Shown here piece after piece: positions 9,595-31,026 of a DNA stretch of 38,331 nucleotides. The notes below the pieces were generated by a model that was not told where the DNA came from, searched no databases, and saw nothing but the letters and a program-made list of their open reading frames with translations. The translations under genes were made by a program, and so were the position numbers. Position 1 is the stretch's first letter, and every line of letters starts with the position of its first letter. The stretch comes from a virus, in IMG/VR virus record IMGVR_UViG_3300010331_000007, positions 1 through 38,331 of that record; one strand, 5' to 3'.

Positions 9595-10389
9595 ATGACC
9601 AATCCTATCGTTCCATGGATGGGCGGAAAACGCCGCCTCGCCGATCGTCTCATCCCTCTTTTCCCGCCTCACGAATGCTACGTTGAAGTATTCGCGGGAG
9701 GTGCGGCCCTCTATTTCATGCGTCCCCAGGCTGCCCCCGTCGAAGTCCTCAACGACATCAACGGCGACCTGGTGACCTTGTATCGCGTCGTCCAGAATCA
9801 CCTTGAAGAGTTTGTGCGCCAGTTCAAATGGGCACTCAGCTCACGGCAGGTGTTCGAGTGGCAGAAGATGACCCGTCCCGAAACGCTCACCGATATCCAA
9901 CGCGCAGCCCGATTTTTTTACCTGCAGCACCATGCCTTCGCCGGCAAGGTCACCGGGCAGACGTTCGGCACGGCGACCACTGGCCCTGCTATCAACCTGC
10001 TCCGGATTGAGGAAAACCTATCTGCAGCGTGGCAGCGGCTGTCCGGCACGTATGTTGAGAACCTGCCATGGCTCGACTGCGCGGAGCGTTATGACCGCGC
10101 CCATACCTTCCATTACATGGACCCGCCTTACTGGCAGACAGCCGGCTATGGCGTCGACTTTCCCTTCGAGAATTACGAACGGATGGCGGATTTCATGCGT
10201 CGGTGCAAAGGCAGGGTCATGGTCAGCATCAATGATCACCCGGATATCCGGAGAGTATTCGACGGCTTTCATTTCGAGACGGTAGACATCCGATACACCA
10301 CTACAAACCAGCGCCAAGGCAAAGCCGAGGTCAGTGGGGAACTGGTGATCATGAACTGGGAGCCAGCGGCATTGGGAGGGTTGTTCTAG
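9595..10389 (+). CDS. D12-class (Dam-like) N6-adenine DNA methyltransferase
   Basis: A 264-residue DNA adenine methyltransferase that would transfer a methyl group from S-adenosylmethionine to adenine N6. PWMGGKRR (residues 7-14) and VFAGGAAL (32-39) form the AdoMet-binding motifs. D176-P-P-Y179 is the catalytic motif IV, and the order (FxGG before DPPY) is that of the alpha/D12 class. The target site cannot be read from the sequence. No restriction endonuclease is adjacent, so it is an orphan methyltransferase, probably protecting phage DNA or altering regulation. It stands alone behind a LexA box, with only a weak ribosome binding site (AAAGG). Confidence 0.92.
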   Translation: MTNPIVPWMGGKRRLADRLIPLFPPHECYVEVFAGGAALYFMRPQAAPVEVLNDINGDLVTLYRVVQNHLEEFVRQFKWALSSRQVFEWQKMTRPETLTDIQRAARFFYLQHHAFAGKVTGQTFGTATTGPAINLLRIEENLSAAWQRLSGTYVENLPWLDCAERYDRAHTFHYMDPPYWQTAGYGVDFPFENYERMADFMRRCKGRVMVSINDHPDIRRVFDGFHFETVDIRYTTTNQRQGKAEVSGELVIMNWEPAALGGLF

Positions 10390-10445
10390 AAGAGATAATG
10401 TCGTCAACCTGATGACGGGTATTGGAACAGGGGAGTTATCTCAAT

Positions 10446-10674
10446 GGGGCAAAAATGGGGCAAACGGTACGCCAATCAATGCCCTTTAATGCCTTTTGAA
10501 CGTTTTTTATGAGTTGTCAAATTAGCCCTACAGCCCTTGTTATTTGGGGCTGTAGGGCTTTTTGGCGTTAATACCCCAACACAATCGGGGTGTGGGAGGT
10601 TAAATCTGAAATAGCTTTATTCATCAATTGGTTAGGGGCGTGAGTGTCAAAGTTAGGGGCAAAACCGGGGCAAA
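10446..10674. other. Putative attP region with paired integrase arm-site repeats
   Basis: The octamer GGGGCAAA occurs four times, in two pairs: 10446 and 10457, then 10656 and 10667. Within each pair the spacing is exactly 11 bp, one helical turn, and the pairs are about 200 bp apart. This is the layout expected for P and P' arm sites flanking a crossover core, in the only long non-coding region near the integrase gene. The core itself cannot be identified without the host attB. The 523-bp gap 10390-10912 otherwise holds a terminator and an AT-rich stretch with no gene that I accept. Confidence 0.55.
10524..10563 (+). terminator. Strong terminator hairpin inside the att region
   Basis: A perfect 13-bp stem pairs 10524-10536 with 10547-10559 (AGCCCTACAGCCC and its complement), with a 10-nt loop and a T-run to 10563. 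It would terminate transcription arriving from the methyltransferase. It could also be part of a bacterial gene terminator captured at the attachment site. Confidence 0.8.
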
Positions 10675-10912
10675 TCGCCGCGCGGATCGTTAGTTGGACA
10701 TGAGTGCCGCGGTGCCGGTGTGTGCGCCTCTCTTTGATGTGTCCGATAGCGGCAAGACTATCACGCGTTCATTTGCAAACACATATCGCCGGAGGCTGCT
10801 GGCCGGGTCGGTTGTGCAACAATATTTAATAAATTCCACCTCAAGGCTATCGTAGTGGCGCACTGCTCCTATAGTATTCACAACCGAAATTTCGAAGGCT
10901 GGTGAGGTATTC

Positions 10913-11608
10913 ATGGAAGTGACAGCTAGCGTGTCAACTAACGCGGAGCCTGATATCGGCACCGTTCAACTGGTTGATGGCTCTGAACCTGAGATCAATG
11001 CTGCTGTCACACCTGATAGACGCGTCATCAAACTCCATGGCGCAGTGAGTGCTGAAACAGTCGAACCGATCATTCAAGATCTTGATCGGGCTGCACCTGG
11101 TGAAAAACTGATGATCTACATCCGCGCCAACGGTGGGGGTGACGTCTATTGGCTGATCCAGCTTGTCAAGGGGTTGTATCGGACTGAGGCGAACGTCGAG
11201 ATCGCGATTGGCCGTTATGCCATGAGTGCAGCTGCAACCCTTTGGTTTGAGTTTTTCATCACACCGAGAGTCGGTGTTGATGGTGTGGGGCGTGTAGTGT
11301 CTGTCGACCCTATCAAACCTGCTGTACTTCTTTACCATCGGCCTCGTTGGCCCCATGACCATGACGACAGATATCATTGTTTCATGGAACATTTCGAAGA
11401 CGAGGCGGTGCGTCAAGAAAAGGAGGAAATGGTTGCAATTTTTGACGAACTGTTTGAACGTATCCTTGAAATGCAAGGATTCGGACTGATCCATGCCGCT
11501 ACGATGAAGCATAATGGCGCTACGTATAAGCACCATCTACACTTCGCTCGTGAGGCATATCTTGGTAACAACGACTACGTTATCTCCATGAAAGGAGTCG
11601 AAGAATGA
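10913..11608 (+). CDS. ClpP/crotonase-fold serine protease-like accessory protein
   Basis: A 231-residue protein with GAGGT 5 bases before its ATG. Residues 38-112 read like a ClpP core: VIKLHGAVSAETVEPIIQDL, then YIRANGGGDVYW (the oxyanion Gly-rich turn that follows the strand), then GRYAMSAAATLW with S105 at the nucleophile position. LLYHRPR (H142) fits the ClpP His. The third triad residue is not clear: the segment aligned with the ClpP Asp region reads TYKHHLHFAREA. The His-rich insert WPHDHDDRYHCF (146-157) is unusual for ClpP. It lacks scaffold or capsid-maturation features and lies apart from head genes. Codon use is more AT-rich than in the structural genes, suggesting acquisition. 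It forms a two-gene unit with 11605-11787, so it is a moron candidate. Its function is unknown. Confidence 0.65.
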   Translation: MEVTASVSTNAEPDIGTVQLVDGSEPEINAAVTPDRRVIKLHGAVSAETVEPIIQDLDRAAPGEKLMIYIRANGGGDVYWLIQLVKGLYRTEANVEIAIGRYAMSAAATLWFEFFITPRVGVDGVGRVVSVDPIKPAVLLYHRPRWPHDHDDRYHCFMEHFEDEAVRQEKEEMVAIFDELFERILEMQGFGLIHAATMKHNGATYKHHLHFAREAYLGNNDYVISMKGVEE

Positions 11609-11787
11609 AGTGTCTAGTAGCTGGTGAGCTCAGAGCTAAGCTTGAAGAGTCCCGTAAACACCTATCCGGCCAGGGTGAGGATTTCACCATGGAACGTGTA
11701 CGCCGGTTCGAGCAGGCCGACCAGCGTTTGCAAGAGGCTTGCGCGCGTCTAGGCATTAGAAAGCCGCAAATGATCGCCTCGCACTGA
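11605..11787 (+). CDS. Small partner protein of the ClpP-like gene, unknown function
   Basis: A 60-residue charged, helical protein with a strong ribosome binding site (AAGGAG, 8 bases before the ATG) and a 4-base overlap with the protease-like gene. Residues 8-50 are rich in Glu, Arg and Gln in a coiled-coil-like spacing. I do not recognise a family. Tight coupling suggests that the two proteins act together, for example as substrate adaptor or inhibitor, which is inference only. Confidence 0.6.
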   Translation: MKCLVAGELRAKLEESRKHLSGQGEDFTMERVRRFEQADQRLQEACARLGIRKPQMIASH

Positions 11788-11788
11788 G

Positions 11789-11816
11789 AAAAAAAGCCCC
11801 GTCAAGGGGCTTTTTT
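11789..11816. terminator. Bidirectional terminator between the accessory pair and the integrase
   Basis: A GCCCC/GGGGC stem (11796-11800 and 11806-11810) is flanked by an A-run (11789-11795) and a T-run (11811-11816), so it works on both strands. The integrase stop codon lies inside the hairpin, which serves the two convergent units. Confidence 0.85.
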
Positions 11817-13070
11817 ACGTCTGTCCTCATCTGTTTTTGCGGACAATCCAGCCCAAATCCTTTCAAGTTCTGCTGGCGACTCATCATCCATCCATTTTGC
11901 ATAGACCTCCACCAACATCGTGAAGTCCTTGTGGCCCATCTGCTTGGCGATGAATGCTAGGTTGCCTCGCGCCGTTAGGCACCAGCAAGCGTAGGTGTGC
12001 CTAGTCTGGTAGGGCCGGCGCGAGCGAATGCCCGAACGCTTTTGAATGGCTGCCCACTTTGTGTTCCATGACGTGGGAACAAACCAGTGGTTGATGATTT
12101 TCTTTCTGGCTTGCGTTGTCGGGGACAGTAGAGGGGTAACTGTTTCGACGCGGCTTTCGTGGCGGTTCATGTATACCTCAATCGCGCGCGGTGCGTGGTC
12201 GGCCACCAACCCCATCAGAATTTTGCAGGCCTCGACAGCTGGTGGCATCAGAAGTACCGCCCGAGGCTTTCCAGTCTTCGGGACTTTGAATGTGCCATCC
12301 GCTGTGATCGCCCGGATGATATTGATCTGTCCAGCGACCAGGTCGATGTCTTCTACAGCTAGCGCGCACATCTCACCCGGGCGAAGGCCTGTGTACACGG
12401 CGAGGGTGATCGCTGCTGAGTCCTGCGGGTGGAGGCATCCTTTGGTGAGCAGCTGTTCGAACTCGGTCTTTGTCAGCGGATCCGGTTCACGTCCGATCAT
12501 CGCGAATCGTATGCAAGCGGTGGACAGGCCTTTGCGGCAGTAGCCGTTGTTCTCGCACCAGGCCAGGAAGCCGGCGAACGTTGCTAGATAATGGTTCGCG
12601 GTCGAAGGCGCTCTGGTGGCGATCAATTGAGTTCTGAGCAGTTGGATATCTTCGGGCAAGAGGATGCCTGCCAATCGGTCTGGCCCCAATAGTTCCGTGC
12701 AGATATCCAGTGCGTAACCGTATTTCTCCTCGGTCATCGGCGTGATGTCGACAGCTTTCAGCGGTTTGTACCGGGCCAGCAGTGCGGCTAAGCGTTCATC
12801 CTTTACGGTGCTGTAGTTGGTCGCGTTTTTCGAGTTGGGAAAGTGACGGTTGTAATCGAAATGTCCTGTTTTGATCTCATGAATGATTGCCGCCCTGAGT
12901 AGGGCGGCATGTTTGATGTTGGCTTTTGTTACCGGGAGGCCAAGGGATTCGCGGCAGCGGACTCGCCGCCACATGAACACGACGCGAATGTTACCGCCGT
13001 GTAACTCAATCCCTTTATGCTTGACCAGTTCGGCTTCTAGGCTGCTACTTGTGGCGCGCTCTCGGCCCAT
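11802..13070 (-). CDS. int: Tyrosine recombinase integrase
   Basis: A site-specific recombinase of 422 residues when started at 13070, where GGAG lies 8 bases upstream. A longer frame reaches 13142, but it would overlap most of the excisionase start region. The N-terminal part (GIELHGGNIRVVFMWRRVRC) is the DUF3596-type arm-binding domain. A SAM-like core-binding domain follows, then the catalytic domain: R230 in TGLRPGE, K265 in VPKTGK, R357 in YQTRHTY, H380 in QMGHKD, and nucleophile Y390 in VEVYAKW. The usual first His of the HxxR box is Tyr here. It is the last gene of the leftward operon and ends in a bidirectional terminator, pointing at the putative attP. Confidence 0.95.
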   Translation of the reverse strand: MGRERATSSSLEAELVKHKGIELHGGNIRVVFMWRRVRCRESLGLPVTKANIKHAALLRAAIIHEIKTGHFDYNRHFPNSKNATNYSTVKDERLAALLARYKPLKAVDITPMTEEKYGYALDICTELLGPDRLAGILLPEDIQLLRTQLIATRAPSTANHYLATFAGFLAWCENNGYCRKGLSTACIRFAMIGREPDPLTKTEFEQLLTKGCLHPQDSAAITLAVYTGLRPGEMCALAVEDIDLVAGQINIIRAITADGTFKVPKTGKPRAVLLMPPAVEACKILMGLVADHAPRAIEVYMNRHESRVETVTPLLSPTTQARKKIINHWFVPTSWNTKWAAIQKRSGIRSRRPYQTRHTYACWCLTARGNLAFIAKQMGHKDFTMLVEVYAKWMDDESPAELERIWAGLSAKTDEDRRKKAP

Positions 13071-13234
13071 CGGTCGTACTCCGTCATATTTATTGCGATG
13101 CGTCCGTCTGGAGCTTTTCGCCATACCCGGCCTTGAGGCCAAGTCCCGTCTTTAACTTTGTGGCGAATGGCGTCTTCGCTATACCCGGTAAGTTCGGCTG
13201 CCCGTTTGATCATTACCCAGCGTGGTAGGCTCAT
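13037..13234 (-). CDS. xis: Excisionase-like DNA-binding protein
   Basis: A 65-residue protein. The motif WVMIKRAAELTGYSEDAIR is a winged-helix/MerR-like recognition region. GRVWRKAPDGRIAINMTEYDRW is the wing and tail typical of phage excisionases. It overlaps the methyltransferase stop (ATGA) and extends 34 bases past the preferred integrase start, so xis and int are coupled. Its role would be to direct the integrase to excision. Confidence 0.8.
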   Translation of the reverse strand: MSLPRWVMIKRAAELTGYSEDAIRHKVKDGTWPQGRVWRKAPDGRIAINMTEYDRWAESAPQVAA

Positions 13235-15159
13235 GCCGCCTCCTTAATCTGTTCGGTCTGTCGCCACGGATCGTTCGCCCGGGCCAATGCAGCCATCGGT
13301 GGAGGGCTTACGCTGTTGCCGCACATGTGGACCTTCTGGGTCTTGGTGAATGGCTTGCCGTCCGTACCCTTGTCGATGATGTAGTCGGCGGGAAAGCCCT
13401 GTGCCCGGTATAGTTCTGCCGGTTGCAACATTCGAAGGCAGATGTCGACGATCACGTAAGGCGCACCCTTAATCATCACTGTGATCAAGGCCAGCCGATC
13501 CTTCGTGGTTATGGTTGGCGCCGGCTTGTTGAGTCCGCTCATGTTCTCGGTGCCGTAGTAGCTGATCAGGAATGCCGCGACCCGCAGGGCACCTTCTTCG
13601 TGTTCGGATGAAAGCTGAAATGAAACCAGCGAACTCTTCCCACCGCCGCCTGCCGTAATAGTTGGCGCGGGTCCGTCGATGCCCTGGCCGATGCTGGCGC
13701 CGAACTGGCGCTCGAGAAATGCACTGGCCAGGCCGTGGTGAGTTCCGCCAGCGCTAACGGTGTGCAGAGGCTCAGTCAGGGCACGGGCATCGCAGTTACC
13801 GCGAAAGTGCACCAGGTTGGCGGCGACCAGCTGCTGTTGGCTGCCGGTGTTCGTCACGGTCGTCATTGGCTCGTCGATGCCCTTAGCGTCGGTGGTGTTG
13901 AATCCGCCATTCATCTGCGCCATGAAGGTGCTGACCAGGGCGTGTTTAACGCCGCCAGCGACAACGGTGCCAAGCGGTTGGTTAAGCCCCGGAATTCTCG
14001 GTTGTTGTCCGTCTCGCTCGCCGTAACCGGTTTGGATCAGGGTAGGGCTGATCAGTGTGAACTCGCCGCGGTTGGCGCATGTAACCGTTGGCAATGGCTC
14101 AAGTGGATCGTTGATCCGGTCGCTGCCCTGGTGGGTTGCTGGCGCAATGATGGGGCTGACCACCGAGAATGCGCCGCCTTTAGGGTAGGAGGTAATAGTC
14201 CGTAACGGCTCATCCATCGACTGCACTGTCTCGGTCGACCAGTTCGCGATTGGCACGATGAAAGGTTTCGGGTTGTCGATGACGAACTTCTTCATGCCCT
14301 TCGCTACGCGCCGAAGCGTGGCGGGTGCCGGGTCCTTCTTTCGTCCGAAAATGCTTTTGCCCAGGTCGCTGAAATCGATGCACTCGGCGGCGGTGCGCCA
14401 CGGAAGCTGACCCTTTGCTGGTTTCTTCGCATGGGTTGGCTCTGGCCATACGACTGGCTGACCATCGCACCGCGCTATCATGAACAGGCGTTCACGACTA
14501 GTCGGTGCACCGAAGTCACAGGCCTTGATCACGCGCCATTCGACGACGTAGCCCATACCCTGCAGTTCGGCGACGAATCGCGCCCAGGTCTGGCCTTTGC
14601 GTTTCGGATCGGGTACCAGGAATTGCTGCTCGAGCGGAACGACCTCGCCCGGTTCCGCAATGTCTCCACCCAGCTTTACGACGCGCCCGGTCAGCTTGCA
14701 TCGCTTGGCGATCAACGGTCCCCACTGAAGGATTTGCTTCACATTCTCCAGGCTGATCACGCGCGGCTTCTTCTTGCCACCCCATTTCAGGCCGATCCAA
14801 GACAGGTTTCGAATCTCGCGCTTACGCGGCTGGCCACCAGCTGCCTGGCTGTGATGCGTGCAGTCTGGCGACATGTGGAACCATCCGACCGCCTTGCCTT
14901 CGCACTCGGTGTCAGGGTCGCCCTCGAACACGTCGGTGGTGTAATGCCTGGTATGCGGGTGATTGGCGGTGTGCATGCTGATCGCTGCGGGGTTGTGATT
15001 TTTCGCAACATTCACCGCACGGCCAAGGCCCATCTCCAGACCAGTACCGGCACCGCCGCCACCGCAGAAGAAGTCGACAACGATCTCATCGTCCTGAGTA
15101 CTGAAGCCGAGTCCGTATTGAGTTTTGAAGTCGAACGGAGGCTTTTTGATTGTGGTCAT
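13231..15159 (-). CDS. C5-cytosine DNA methyltransferase with seven-fold expanded PLxTIT repeat region
   Basis: A 642-residue enzyme, longer than a typical 330-450-residue C5 methyltransferase. Motif I is VDFFCGGGGAGTGLE (28-42). Motif IV is MSPDCTHHS with catalytic C100; it has PDC rather than the usual PPC. Motif VI is SLENV (136-140), motif VIII TSRERLF (220-226), motif IX RMLQPAELYRAQGFP, and motif X MCGNSVSPP (612-620). Between motifs VIII and IX, residues 312-560 hold seven units beginning PLRTIT, PLPTVT, PLGTVV, PMTTVT, PLHTVS, PAPTIT and PAPTIT, spaced 33-49 residues apart. This is where the target recognition domain belongs. No restriction enzyme gene is adjacent, so it probably protects phage DNA. 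It is coupled to the upstream phosphoesterase by ATGA. Confidence 0.93.
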   Translation of the reverse strand: MTTIKKPPFDFKTQYGLGFSTQDDEIVVDFFCGGGGAGTGLEMGLGRAVNVAKNHNPAAISMHTANHPHTRHYTTDVFEGDPDTECEGKAVGWFHMSPDCTHHSQAAGGQPRKREIRNLSWIGLKWGGKKKPRVISLENVKQILQWGPLIAKRCKLTGRVVKLGGDIAEPGEVVPLEQQFLVPDPKRKGQTWARFVAELQGMGYVVEWRVIKACDFGAPTSRERLFMIARCDGQPVVWPEPTHAKKPAKGQLPWRTAAECIDFSDLGKSIFGRKKDPAPATLRRVAKGMKKFVIDNPKPFIVPIANWSTETVQSMDEPLRTITSYPKGGAFSVVSPIIAPATHQGSDRINDPLEPLPTVTCANRGEFTLISPTLIQTGYGERDGQQPRIPGLNQPLGTVVAGGVKHALVSTFMAQMNGGFNTTDAKGIDEPMTTVTNTGSQQQLVAANLVHFRGNCDARALTEPLHTVSAGGTHHGLASAFLERQFGASIGQGIDGPAPTITAGGGGKSSLVSFQLSSEHEEGALRVAAFLISYYGTENMSGLNKPAPTITTKDRLALITVMIKGAPYVIVDICLRMLQPAELYRAQGFPADYIIDKGTDGKPFTKTQKVHMCGNSVSPPPMAALARANDPWRQTEQIKEAA

Positions 15160-19903: not shown

Positions 19904-20596
19904 TTAGAAAATTTCTAGCTTCGAAATCACGACTCCACAGATGATCCCATCCGGTGGTATTTCAATGATCGGCTCGGGCCACGAGGGATTTAGTGGCCTT
20001 AGAAATTTACGGGTTCCTTCCATGACGAGCTGCTTGAATGTTGCTTCATCGCTATCCATCAGCTTGGCGATGACTAGGGAGCCGTTTTCAGCATCGCGCT
20101 CGGGGTCAACATAGATGATGTCTCCTTCGCGAAATGAGCGGCGCTCGTGCGGATTGAACATTGATAGCCCGCGCACCCTTAGAGCGTATGTCTCTTTACT
20201 GTGGGAAACTGCGCAAGGAAGCCATATATCAACATCATCAATATTGTAGACGTCGCTAATCTCGCACCATGATCCTGCTTGAACCCACGAGATCAGAGGA
20301 ACGCCTCCTTTAATAGTTGGCCCTGGGCCGATATTTGATTCTTCCTTAAAAAGCCGTCCCGTTTGCGGTGATATTGGCTCCGAATTACTGCCGCCATTCC
20401 AGAGCCAATTACTGTTCACCTGCAGGGCTTTTGCAATTCTTTCGACGTTTGCGTGCCTGGGGCTGAGCGATTCGCCAGTTACGATTCGGTGGATTGTCGG
20501 TTGAGATACACCTGAGCGTCGACCTAGCTCGCCTTCTGAGAGTTTTAGCTCTTCCATGCGTTTGGCAATACGTTCTCCGATCATTTTGCGGCCCAT
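19904..20596 (-). CDS. CI-like phage repressor with S24 self-cleavage domain
   Basis: A 230-residue repressor. Residues 6-45 form a helix-turn-helix (ERIAKRMEELKLSEGELGRR, then GVSQPTIHRIVTG). The C-terminal S24/LexA-like domain has cleavage site A107-G108 (SWVQAGSW), nucleophile S145 (VRGLSMFNP) and base K178 (SLVIAKL). The intervals resemble those of lambda CI and LexA, so RecA-stimulated self-cleavage is expected. The start may be 20596 or the ATG at 20584; neither has a clear Shine-Dalgarno sequence, and a very short leader is possible. Divergent from cro, it should maintain lysogeny by binding the AATACG-type operators at PL and PR. Confidence 0.93.
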   Translation of the reverse strand: MGRKMIGERIAKRMEELKLSEGELGRRSGVSQPTIHRIVTGESLSPRHANVERIAKALQVNSNWLWNGGSNSEPISPQTGRLFKEESNIGPGPTIKGGVPLISWVQAGSWCEISDVYNIDDVDIWLPCAVSHSKETYALRVRGLSMFNPHERRSFREGDIIYVDPERDAENGSLVIAKLMDSDEATFKQLVMEGTRKFLRPLNPSWPEPIIEIPPDGIICGVVISKLEIF

Positions 20597-28807: not shown

Positions 28808-30082
28808 ATGTTCTTCAGTAAACAGCGTAGCGAGTCGATTGGCAGTGTCGGCGACGGGAGTACCAGTTTCTGGCGTGGCCTCATCGGTTCGGGCAAAAGT
28901 AGCGCTGGAGTACAGGTCACGCCGGAATCAGCGATGGCGGTGCCGATCGTGCAGAACTGCGTCACGCTGCTGGCCGAAAGCGTTGCTCAGCTGCCGCTGG
29001 AGTTGTACTACCGCACGGCTAATGGTCAGCGTGATGCCGCGATCAACCATCCGCTGTACGACGTTCTTCGGTACCAGCCGAACGGTTTTCAAACACCGTA
29101 TGAACATCGTGAAGGGGGGCAGTTGGCGCTGGGGCTGCGCGGCAACTGTTACAGCTTCATGGAGCGACGGGATGACGGCAACATCACCGCTCTTTGGCCG
29201 CTGCACAATGACAAGGTCATTGTTTGCAAAGGCCCGGACTTGTTGCCGTATTACCAGGTGGGAGCTCACACCGACCGATTTGCCATGCGGCAGATCCACC
29301 ATGTTCGGTGGCACTCGCATAACCATTACGAAGGCATGTCGCCAATCATGCTGCACGCCGATGCGGTGGGCCTGGCCCAGGCTGTGCGTCAGTACACTGG
29401 CAAATCGTTTGCCAATGGCGTTTCGGTTTCCGGCGTGATCGAGCGGCCACGCGAAGCCCCGGCGATCAAGGATCAAGGTTCGATTGATCGCGTCCTTGAC
29501 CAGTGGGGCAGCAAGTTCGGCGGCATGGATAACGCCAAAAAGGTTGCCATGCTTCAGGAGGGCATGACCTTCAAGCCGGTATCGATGACCAACGTGGATG
29601 CCGAAATCATCGGCATCCTCAAGCTCTCAGGCGTCGACTGCGCACGGATCTACAAGATCCCGTTGCCCATGGTCAACGACCTGGACAAAGCCAACTACAA
29701 CACCATCGAGCAGTTGTTGATTCAATTCGTGGTGTTTGGCTTGTTGCCGTGGATCAAGCGCCATGAGCAATCAATGATGCGCGACTTCCTGCTGCCGCAG
29801 GATCGGCGTGATTACTTCATCGAATTCAACCTGGCTGGACTGATGCGGGGCGACCAAAAAAGTCGCTACGAGGCATATGCCATTGGCCGGCAGTGGGGTT
29901 GGCTTTCGGTCAATGACATTCGCCGGCTGGAAAACATGCCTCCCGTTATGGGCGGCGACGTTTATTTACAGCCGCTGAACATGGTGGGCGCGGGCAAGGA
30001 AGCGCCCAATTTGACAGACCCCAAGGTGCGGGCGCAGCTGGAGCTGCAACAGCACGAGATCGGAAGGATGCTTGCGCAATGA
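28808..30082 (+). CDS. HK97-family portal protein
   Basis: A 424-residue portal started at 28808, with GGAGG 6 bases upstream (a TTG at 28802 is less likely). VPIVQNCVTLLAESVAQLPL, NHPLYDVLRYQPN, RGNCYSFMERRDDG, GVDCARIYKIPLPMVND and GLLPWIKRHEQSMMRDFLLP are typical HK97 gp3 segments. Twelve copies would form the ring at the capsid vertex. It is coupled to the protease gene. Confidence 0.95.
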   Translation: MFFSKQRSESIGSVGDGSTSFWRGLIGSGKSSAGVQVTPESAMAVPIVQNCVTLLAESVAQLPLELYYRTANGQRDAAINHPLYDVLRYQPNGFQTPYEHREGGQLALGLRGNCYSFMERRDDGNITALWPLHNDKVIVCKGPDLLPYYQVGAHTDRFAMRQIHHVRWHSHNHYEGMSPIMLHADAVGLAQAVRQYTGKSFANGVSVSGVIERPREAPAIKDQGSIDRVLDQWGSKFGGMDNAKKVAMLQEGMTFKPVSMTNVDAEIIGILKLSGVDCARIYKIPLPMVNDLDKANYNTIEQLLIQFVVFGLLPWIKRHEQSMMRDFLLPQDRRDYFIEFNLAGLMRGDQKSRYEAYAIGRQWGWLSVNDIRRLENMPPVMGGDVYLQPLNMVGAGKEAPNLTDPKVRAQLELQQHEIGRMLAQ

Positions 30083-31026
30083 GAAATTACTTACGGGCAT
30101 CCAGCTTGCTGTTCAACCAGCCTTTGCTGGTGGCGCCTGACATGCTGGACCTCGGCGTTCGTTGGGCCAACCAGGCCATGAACCTCAACATCATCAACCT
30201 TGGTGGCAATGGCTCGGCCAAGATGTTCACGGGCGACGATGATGCCGGGGAGCAACAGCAGCAGGCAGAGCAGCGGCGCAGCACCATCGCCTCAACGGGC
30301 ATCGAGGTCGTGCCGGTGCACGGCGTCCTGGTCAGTCGTGGCAGCCACCTGAACGCCTGCGAGACCATGACCAGCTACGAGGGATTGCGTCAGCAGTTGC
30401 GACAGGCCGTTGCTGACCCGATGGTTGAGCGAGTCGTGCTCGACATCGATAGCCCAGGCGGTGCAGCGGTGGGGGCCTTTGAGTTGGCCGCTGACATTCG
30501 CGCGCTTTCATTGATCAAGCCGATCACGGGCATCGTCAACTTTATGGCCTACAGCGGCGGCTACCTGATAGGCAGCGCCTGCAGCGAACTGGTGGTGAGT
30601 CAGACCAGCGGAGTCGGGTCCATTGGCGTAATTGCCAGTCACATGGACCGCTCCAAGCAGGAAGAGAGCATGGGCGTGAAGGTGACCACCGTGTATGCCG
30701 GTGCTCACAAAAATGACCTCAGTCCCCACGAACCGCTGACGGATCAGTCTCTGAAGTTTCTGCAGGACCTGGTGCAGGAAAGCTACCAGCTGTTCTTGAG
30801 TGCCGTGGCTGAGTATCGCGGCATGAGCATCGAAGCCGTACGGGCCACTGAGGCCGGTTTGTATCGCGGTCAGGCTGGTATCGCGGCGGGTCTGGCCGAT
30901 CGCCTGCAAAGTCCGCAGGACGCAGTCGATGAAATCTCTCGCGCCGTTGCACAAAACCGGATGCAATGCCAGACCGGCCGGATCGGCCTACGGGCTTCGG
31001 CCCTGAATATTCAAGCACGTCTCTGA
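30079..31026 (+). CDS. Capsid maturation protease, S49 (SppA-like) family
   Basis: A 315-residue protease. VVLDIDSPGGAAVGAFELA is the substrate-strand Gly motif. The nucleophile is S159 in MAYSGGYLIGSACSE, and the general base is probably K211 in YAGAHKND. The interval of 52 residues equals that of single-domain bacterial SppA. It should process the capsid delta domain. It replaces the ClpP-like or U35-type protease found in other HK97-like phages. Confidence 0.92.
   Translation: MRNYLRASSLLFNQPLLVAPDMLDLGVRWANQAMNLNIINLGGNGSAKMFTGDDDAGEQQQQAEQRRSTIASTGIEVVPVHGVLVSRGSHLNACETMTSYEGLRQQLRQAVADPMVERVVLDIDSPGGAAVGAFELAADIRALSLIKPITGIVNFMAYSGGYLIGSACSELVVSQTSGVGSIGVIASHMDRSKQEESMGVKVTTVYAGAHKNDLSPHEPLTDQSLKFLQDLVQESYQLFLSAVAEYRGMSIEAVRATEAGLYRGQAGIAAGLADRLQSPQDAVDEISRAVAQNRMQCQTGRIGLRASALNIQARL

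Follow-up and report, generated by a model that had tools for sequence, protein, structure and literature searches.

A ClpP-fold peptidase-like gene and its small partner as a candidate mobile accessory module of a Pseudomonas-type temperate phage

The two genes that lie between the attachment site and the integrase of a Pseudomonas-type temperate phage, encoding a ClpP-like protein and a small helical partner, are best read as a self-contained mobile accessory module serving the host or the prophage, and not as virion genes. The sequence analysed here (the window) is the whole virus record of 38331 bases, and the closest phage records found with its bases 1-24000 share it only in part, at ~73-78%. 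We put the probability that the pair is a module of the immunity type whose effector is a peptidase, whether a defence system or a defence-like addiction system, at roughly 0.45. A more specific form of this reading, in which a Ser-His-His ClpP-fold peptidase is the effector and a helical protein the sensor-inhibitor of a two-gene anti-phage system that temperate phages, plasmids and integrons disseminate, is offered tentatively and at appreciably less than even odds. The features of the region are collected in Table 1.

Table 1. Position and evidence for the gene pair and the features around it in the window
Feature	Position	Strand	Evidence
attP core, a copy of the mutS 5' end (MNKAISDLTSHTP on the minus strand)	10584..10626	-	sequence comparison
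Leader from attP core to the pair, presumed promoter carrier	10627..10912	+	no sigma-70 match
ClpP-fold peptidase-like gene, 231 aa	10913..11608	+	ORF, structure model, 32 copies aligned
Helical partner gene, 60 aa	11605..11787	+	ORF; homologue or positional equivalent in 32/32 copies
Rho-independent terminator, symmetric (A-run, GCCCC stem, T-run)	~11790..11816	.	hairpin -17.2 kcal/mol, z -3.85
Tyrosine integrase, convergent with the pair	11802..13142	-	PF00589 2.4e-16, PF12167 7.5e-21

The two open reading frames overlap by four bases, the start of the partner and the stop of the first gene sharing the sequence ATGA. The initial annotation had described the pair as an independent unit with strong ribosome sites and its own terminator, and this description holds, with a ribosome binding site AAAGGAG in front of the partner and a hairpin behind it that the pair has in common with the convergent integrase. 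A search of positions 10380-11860 for sigma-70-like promoters found none, against 1.7 expected. The AT-rich codon use ascribed to the pair is borne out for the ClpP-like gene (GC 0.497 and GC3 0.478, against a window GC of 0.579 and a GC3 of 0.72-0.75 in the head genes) but less so for the partner (GC 0.552, GC3 0.574), and an ORF elsewhere in the window (19904-20596) is just as AT-rich (GC 0.501, GC3 0.502). As had also been proposed, the pair stands outside the head genes in the manner of a moron, the head protease being a separate S49 gene; it is an insulated unit, low in GC3 in its first gene, and is found at two phage sites as well as on other elements. Elsewhere in the window, a D12 adenine methyltransferase (PF02086) occupies 9595-10389 beside attP, and a long ORF at 13231-15159 has the look of a cytosine methyltransferase, from a motif recognised by eye.

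The location beside attP is likewise supported, with the copy of the mutS start to the left of the pair and the integrase to its right. In three relatives (L004, L012 and L020) mutS lies across the junction, on the far side of the pair. Since the window carries a copy of the mutS codons and these relatives carry mutS itself across the junction, the attachment core lies within the start of mutS, which would make the pair the first phage gene beside the chromosome of a lysogen. The first codons of mutS form the attachment core in the window and also in L004, L005 and L010-L012. Integration of the phage swaps the sequence upstream of this mutator gene for phage DNA, and the expression of mutS in lysogens could change through it; SpyCI, which integrates in mutL of Streptococcus pyogenes, offers a comparison.

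The ClpP-like protein is predicted to have the ClpP fold. An AlphaFold2 model built from 19 sequences reached a pLDDT of 82.8 and a pTM of 0.78, with low confidence in residues 1-23, and all 50 matches listed by Foldseek were ClpP (best E 7.2e-7, TM 0.52 by query). VIA gave a best Z of 13.6 (rmsd 4.5, 161 residues aligned) and Z >= 8 in 913 of 1000 chains, and a long helix (residues 164-187) sits where ClpP has its handle helix. The suggestion of a ClpP or crotonase fold is thus borne out at the level of the model. Comparison by hhalign with profiles of host ClpP was weak (probability 1.9% and 33%), and we therefore base the assignment to ClpP on the predicted fold, on the pattern of residues and on matches to PHROG families; the 33% alignment does pair Ser105 and His142 with the Ser and His of ClpP. 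A profile search of PDB sequences returned no ClpP, its matches being mostly designed alphaRep repeats that we took to be spurious.

Eight residues are invariant in all 32 aligned copies, namely Ser105, His142, Asn73, Gly75, Gly76, Asp178, Tyr216 and Asn219, and the NxGG loop (N73-x-G75-G76) is unchanged throughout. The serine and histidine proposed from the window alone are therefore real features of the family, and the accompanying remark that no clear Asp could be seen was right. Position 207, a strand-to-helix turn which we take to be the place of the catalytic Asp in ClpP, was located by the order of the structural elements and by an EA motif; it is His in 28 of the 32 copies, and the four that diverge most have no aligned residue there. 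The His-rich insert, PHDHDDRYH, is present in the window copy but is peculiar to it, and so is not a trait of the family. Values of dN/dS for the ClpP-like gene were 0.04-0.15 in 10 of 12 pairs, the other two being excluded for saturated dS.

Directly behind the ClpP-like gene, every one of the 32 copies has a gene of 52-70 aa, whose start falls no more than ~35 bases before or after the ClpP-like stop. An ORF scan that skipped same-frame ORFs supplied 27 of these genes and the remaining five (L003, L007, L016, L020 and L023) were found separately. In an alignment of 17 sequences (A4) the partners of the Pseudomonas copies can be matched along a C-terminal motif, to which the Vibrio partner conforms loosely; in four loci (L037, L038, L048 and L076) the equivalence of the partner is one of position alone. 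The model of the window partner is of modest quality (pLDDT 76.8, pTM 0.44) and has two helices, at residues 6-20 and 24-49. The alignment of the partner proved too poorly conserved to serve for scanning a sequence collection; relatives of the partner were counted from the position directly behind copies of the ClpP-like gene, and a tblastn search of phages with the partner itself gave no match. Its gene has dN/dS values of 0.00-0.16 in 11 of 12 pairs (one excluded, saturated dS), and on these codon comparisons both genes are, where measured, under purifying selection. The fixed place behind the first gene, the small size and the divergence in distant copies together suggest that the small protein is a controller of the ClpP-like protein.

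Searching with a single sequence brought up a phage (OQ658367.1, 40.5%) and a Vibrio campbellii plasmid (30.3%), one of each, and alignment-based searches added 5 Pseudomonas genomes and 20 IMG/VR contigs. In drawn genome samples, alignment A3 was positive in 6 of 398 Pseudomonas species, of which two had been found before, and in 1 of 369 Gammaproteobacteria, where the copy was likewise one found before. The wider alignment A9 yielded one further strong copy (G1088, 1.5e-21) among 398 Pseudomonadota and nothing strong beyond the known copy among 390 genomes of the order; weak partial matches in distant Pseudomonadota (7/9 and 3/4 of the A9 matches, E 1e-5 to 7e-4) were left uncounted. Patterns taken from the window protein alone brought up 29 stretches of genome contigs, none of them a relative, and no relative among viral contigs, where a scan with the Pantoea copy gave 7 stretches, again without a relative. 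Complete E. coli genomes held no match to the copy from Enterobacteriaceae ENNIH2. After removal of duplicates and re-fetches (L002, L009, L015, L017, L025, L027-L034, L049, L050 and L061-L075), 32 distinct copies were kept, the window included. They lie in Pseudomonas phages and prophages, in Pseudomonas chromosomal islands, in a Vibrio cassette and on enterobacterial plasmids (Pantoea, Enterobacteriaceae ENNIH2 and Klebsiella). Its recurrence on phages besides this one, on plasmids, in an integron and in islands of bacterial genomes gives the pair the look of a travelling accessory module. Moreover, the integrase of L021 is 68.6% identical to that of the window, yet its ClpP-like protein belongs to another clade.

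The insulation seen in the window extends to the family. A terminator follows the partner in 29 of the 32 copies, where dinucleotide shuffles predict 0.65, and one lies within 200 bases upstream of the pair in 8 of 32 (0.4 expected), in one case inside a Vibrio repeat. In several leaders (L005, L006 and L010-L014), 60-200 bases before the start codon, short palindromes lie downstream of the upstream terminator; that of L006 is ATGGCG-TAA-CGCCAT, and L005 and L010 have a further palindrome, TGTGACATGTCACA, further upstream. These palindromes may be operators.

The expectation that the pair would recur near other integrases was confirmed. A tyrosine integrase adjoins it, directly or past small ORFs only, in ~24 of the 32 loci, and these integrases are of several types and in both orientations. 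The integrase is convergent in 16 loci (window, L004, L005, L007, L010-L012, L016, L018-L022, L026, L038 and L076), tandem and upstream in six (L008, L023, L024, L035, L036 and L077), tandem and downstream in L037, and near the pair in the island L078. A weak integrase-like match lies ~1 kb upstream in L013 and L014, and a holin-like match lies downstream of the pair in L006 and L014. In OQ658367.1 the pair stands between an antitermination gene and a holin; in that record (14177-14857) the ClpP-like ORF is unannotated and the partner annotated. The Vibrio campbellii locus has three 126-nt repeats (86% and 70% identical to the first), which we take to be attC-like by their appearance, and two of them enclose the pair exactly.

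Some copies have defence genes as neighbours. The ENNIH2 plasmid copy directly follows GajA (9.5e-204) and GajB (2.8e-170), and two near-identical Pseudomonas islands, L078 and L079, contain integrases, the pair and type I R-M genes, the R and M genes of L078 lying within 7 kb of the pair by PADLOC and those of L079 being the same by translation. Defence neighbours thus occur in three loci, two of which are these near-identical islands. As eight of the ten neighbours submitted to PADLOC had no match (three in L078 and five in L048, L076 and L080), this setting is suggestive only. Several of these loci have further features of their own. Positions 1722-6640 of L038 (CP026189.1), a conjugative plasmid, hold a complete Gabija pair, then the ClpP-like gene with a 57-aa ORF that lacks annotation, and an integrase convergent with them. 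L078 lies beside tmRNA, and both it and L079 carry a pair of genes (73 and 295 aa) without a Pfam or PADLOC match. On a Klebsiella pneumoniae conjugative plasmid (L048, NZ_CP071081.1, 7830-8638) a divergent pair lies between two IS110 transposases and adjoins a gene of no recognised family.

From contexts that include a prophage edge, an integron cassette, Gabija and type I R-M islands, it is plausible that the pair is, as the initial annotation supposed, a toxin, immunity or regulator system built on a protease. Two short genes that overlap or lie side by side, carried by plasmids, prophages and an integron cassette, would also suit a toxin-antitoxin pair, in which the small protein neutralises a poisonous peptidase and stabilises the element with no specific anti-phage role; however, the suspected antitoxin comes second in order and matches no antitoxin or DNA-binding family, nor does the suspected toxin match a toxin family, and we consider this explanation doubtful, if worth keeping in view. 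The many adjoining integrases, of different types and orientations, would be accounted for if the peptidase regulated integration, excision or prophage induction by cleaving an integrase, an excisionase or a repressor. Integrase ends are, however, well established as general cargo sites, and copies of the pair also lie between late-control and lysis genes (L001, and L006 with its holin-like match downstream), in the integron cassette (L003) and on a plasmid with no annotated integrase near (L048), which makes such a regulator improbable.

The structure invites a different proposal, that the ClpP-like protein forms rings with host ClpP or competes with it while the small protein serves as an adaptor for ClpX or ClpA. 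The handle-like helix and the closest structural matches, all of them true ClpP, are in keeping with this remodelling of host proteolysis, which we nevertheless judge to have only a slim chance of being correct, given that the N-terminal 23 residues of the model are of low confidence and that we saw no gene for an ATPase next to the pair in the window. A protein that is catalytically dead, or esterase- or hydratase-like, and that acts by binding would explain the absent catalytic Asp and the further loss of an aligned His207 from the four divergent copies; it is very unlikely in view of the Ser, His and oxyanion glycines, which are invariant in 32 of 32. A role in head maturation deserves hardly any credence. 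The weak match to NF045542 (E 0.0085, 16.1 bits against a cut-off of 120) is outweighed by the phage's own S49 gene at 30079-31026 (phrog_53, 1.2e-101), and copies on plasmids and in an integron-like array have no annotated head genes nearby. We rejected the capsid protease reading on the separate S49 gene and on the place of the pair, beside int and outside the head cluster; the homologues, which might have proved to be clear capsid proteases, are of another kind.

In the immunity-type reading that we prefer, the first gene would give a ClpP-fold serine peptidase working through Ser105 as nucleophile and His142 as base, with His207 at the place of the ClpP Asp. The second gene, on the same transcript, would give a small helical protein, whose most likely role is to bind the peptidase and restrain (or target) it. 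Transcription of the pair in a lysogen would be separate from that of the lytic genes, and the complex of partner and peptidase might be disturbed by an infecting phage. The peptidase thus freed would then cut a phage or host protein, halting the infection.

Phage proteins with the ClpP fold are usually classed either with the head proteases or with housekeeping copies. A mobile ClpP-fold peptidase with a constant small partner, without the catalytic Asp and located at cargo sites would point to a separate use of the ClpP fold. Should the pair prove to be a defence or addiction system, it would add a ClpP-type protease effector under the control of a mini-protein, and it is small enough to be cloned and tested in one step.

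Against this background, the pair was compared with known families and systems. Pfam gave 0 families at E<=1 for the ClpP-like protein, with no match to PF00574, and PADLOC 2.0.0 gave 0 families at E<=1 for both proteins. No model in Pfam, PHROG, NCBIfam or PADLOC claims the window pair at the curated or 0.001 level, and the same four collections gave no match to known toxin-antitoxin families; membership of a known defence or toxin-antitoxin family was rejected for lack of a matching model. We found no description of such a gene pair in the literature, as judged from search results. Among phage proteins, phrog_1827 ('ATP-dependent protease') is matched at 0.1 or better by 18 of 20 family members (best 2e-8) and phrog_5410, which bears the same name, by 8 members; the window member matches ClpP-like phage proteins of the phrog_1827/phrog_5410 type only at 0.023.

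The ClpP-like protein resembles ClpP (S14, PF00574) in its fold, in the NxGG loop, in a Ser within an S-A-A motif, in a His within YHRPR (MIHQP in ClpP) and in the long handle-like helix. It differs in that His207 takes the position of the catalytic Asp, so that the Ser-His-Asp triad is not present; unlike ClpP, it is accessory and mobile, with a small partner gene behind it. It shares a broad fold class with the head maturation protease of NF045542 and with S49 (phrog_53), but scores far below the cut-off, has another genomic place and coexists with a separate head protease. As insulated cargo, sited at the edge of a prophage or flanked by attC-like repeats, the pair is like the morons of prophages and the cassettes of integrons. 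A review (PMC12409362), citing Darracq 2025 and Kieffer 2025, reports integrons as stores of anti-phage cassettes, which fits the immunity reading without proving it. Taken against these systems, the pair has an unusual active site, a new partner and a new setting, on a fold that is already known from ClpP.
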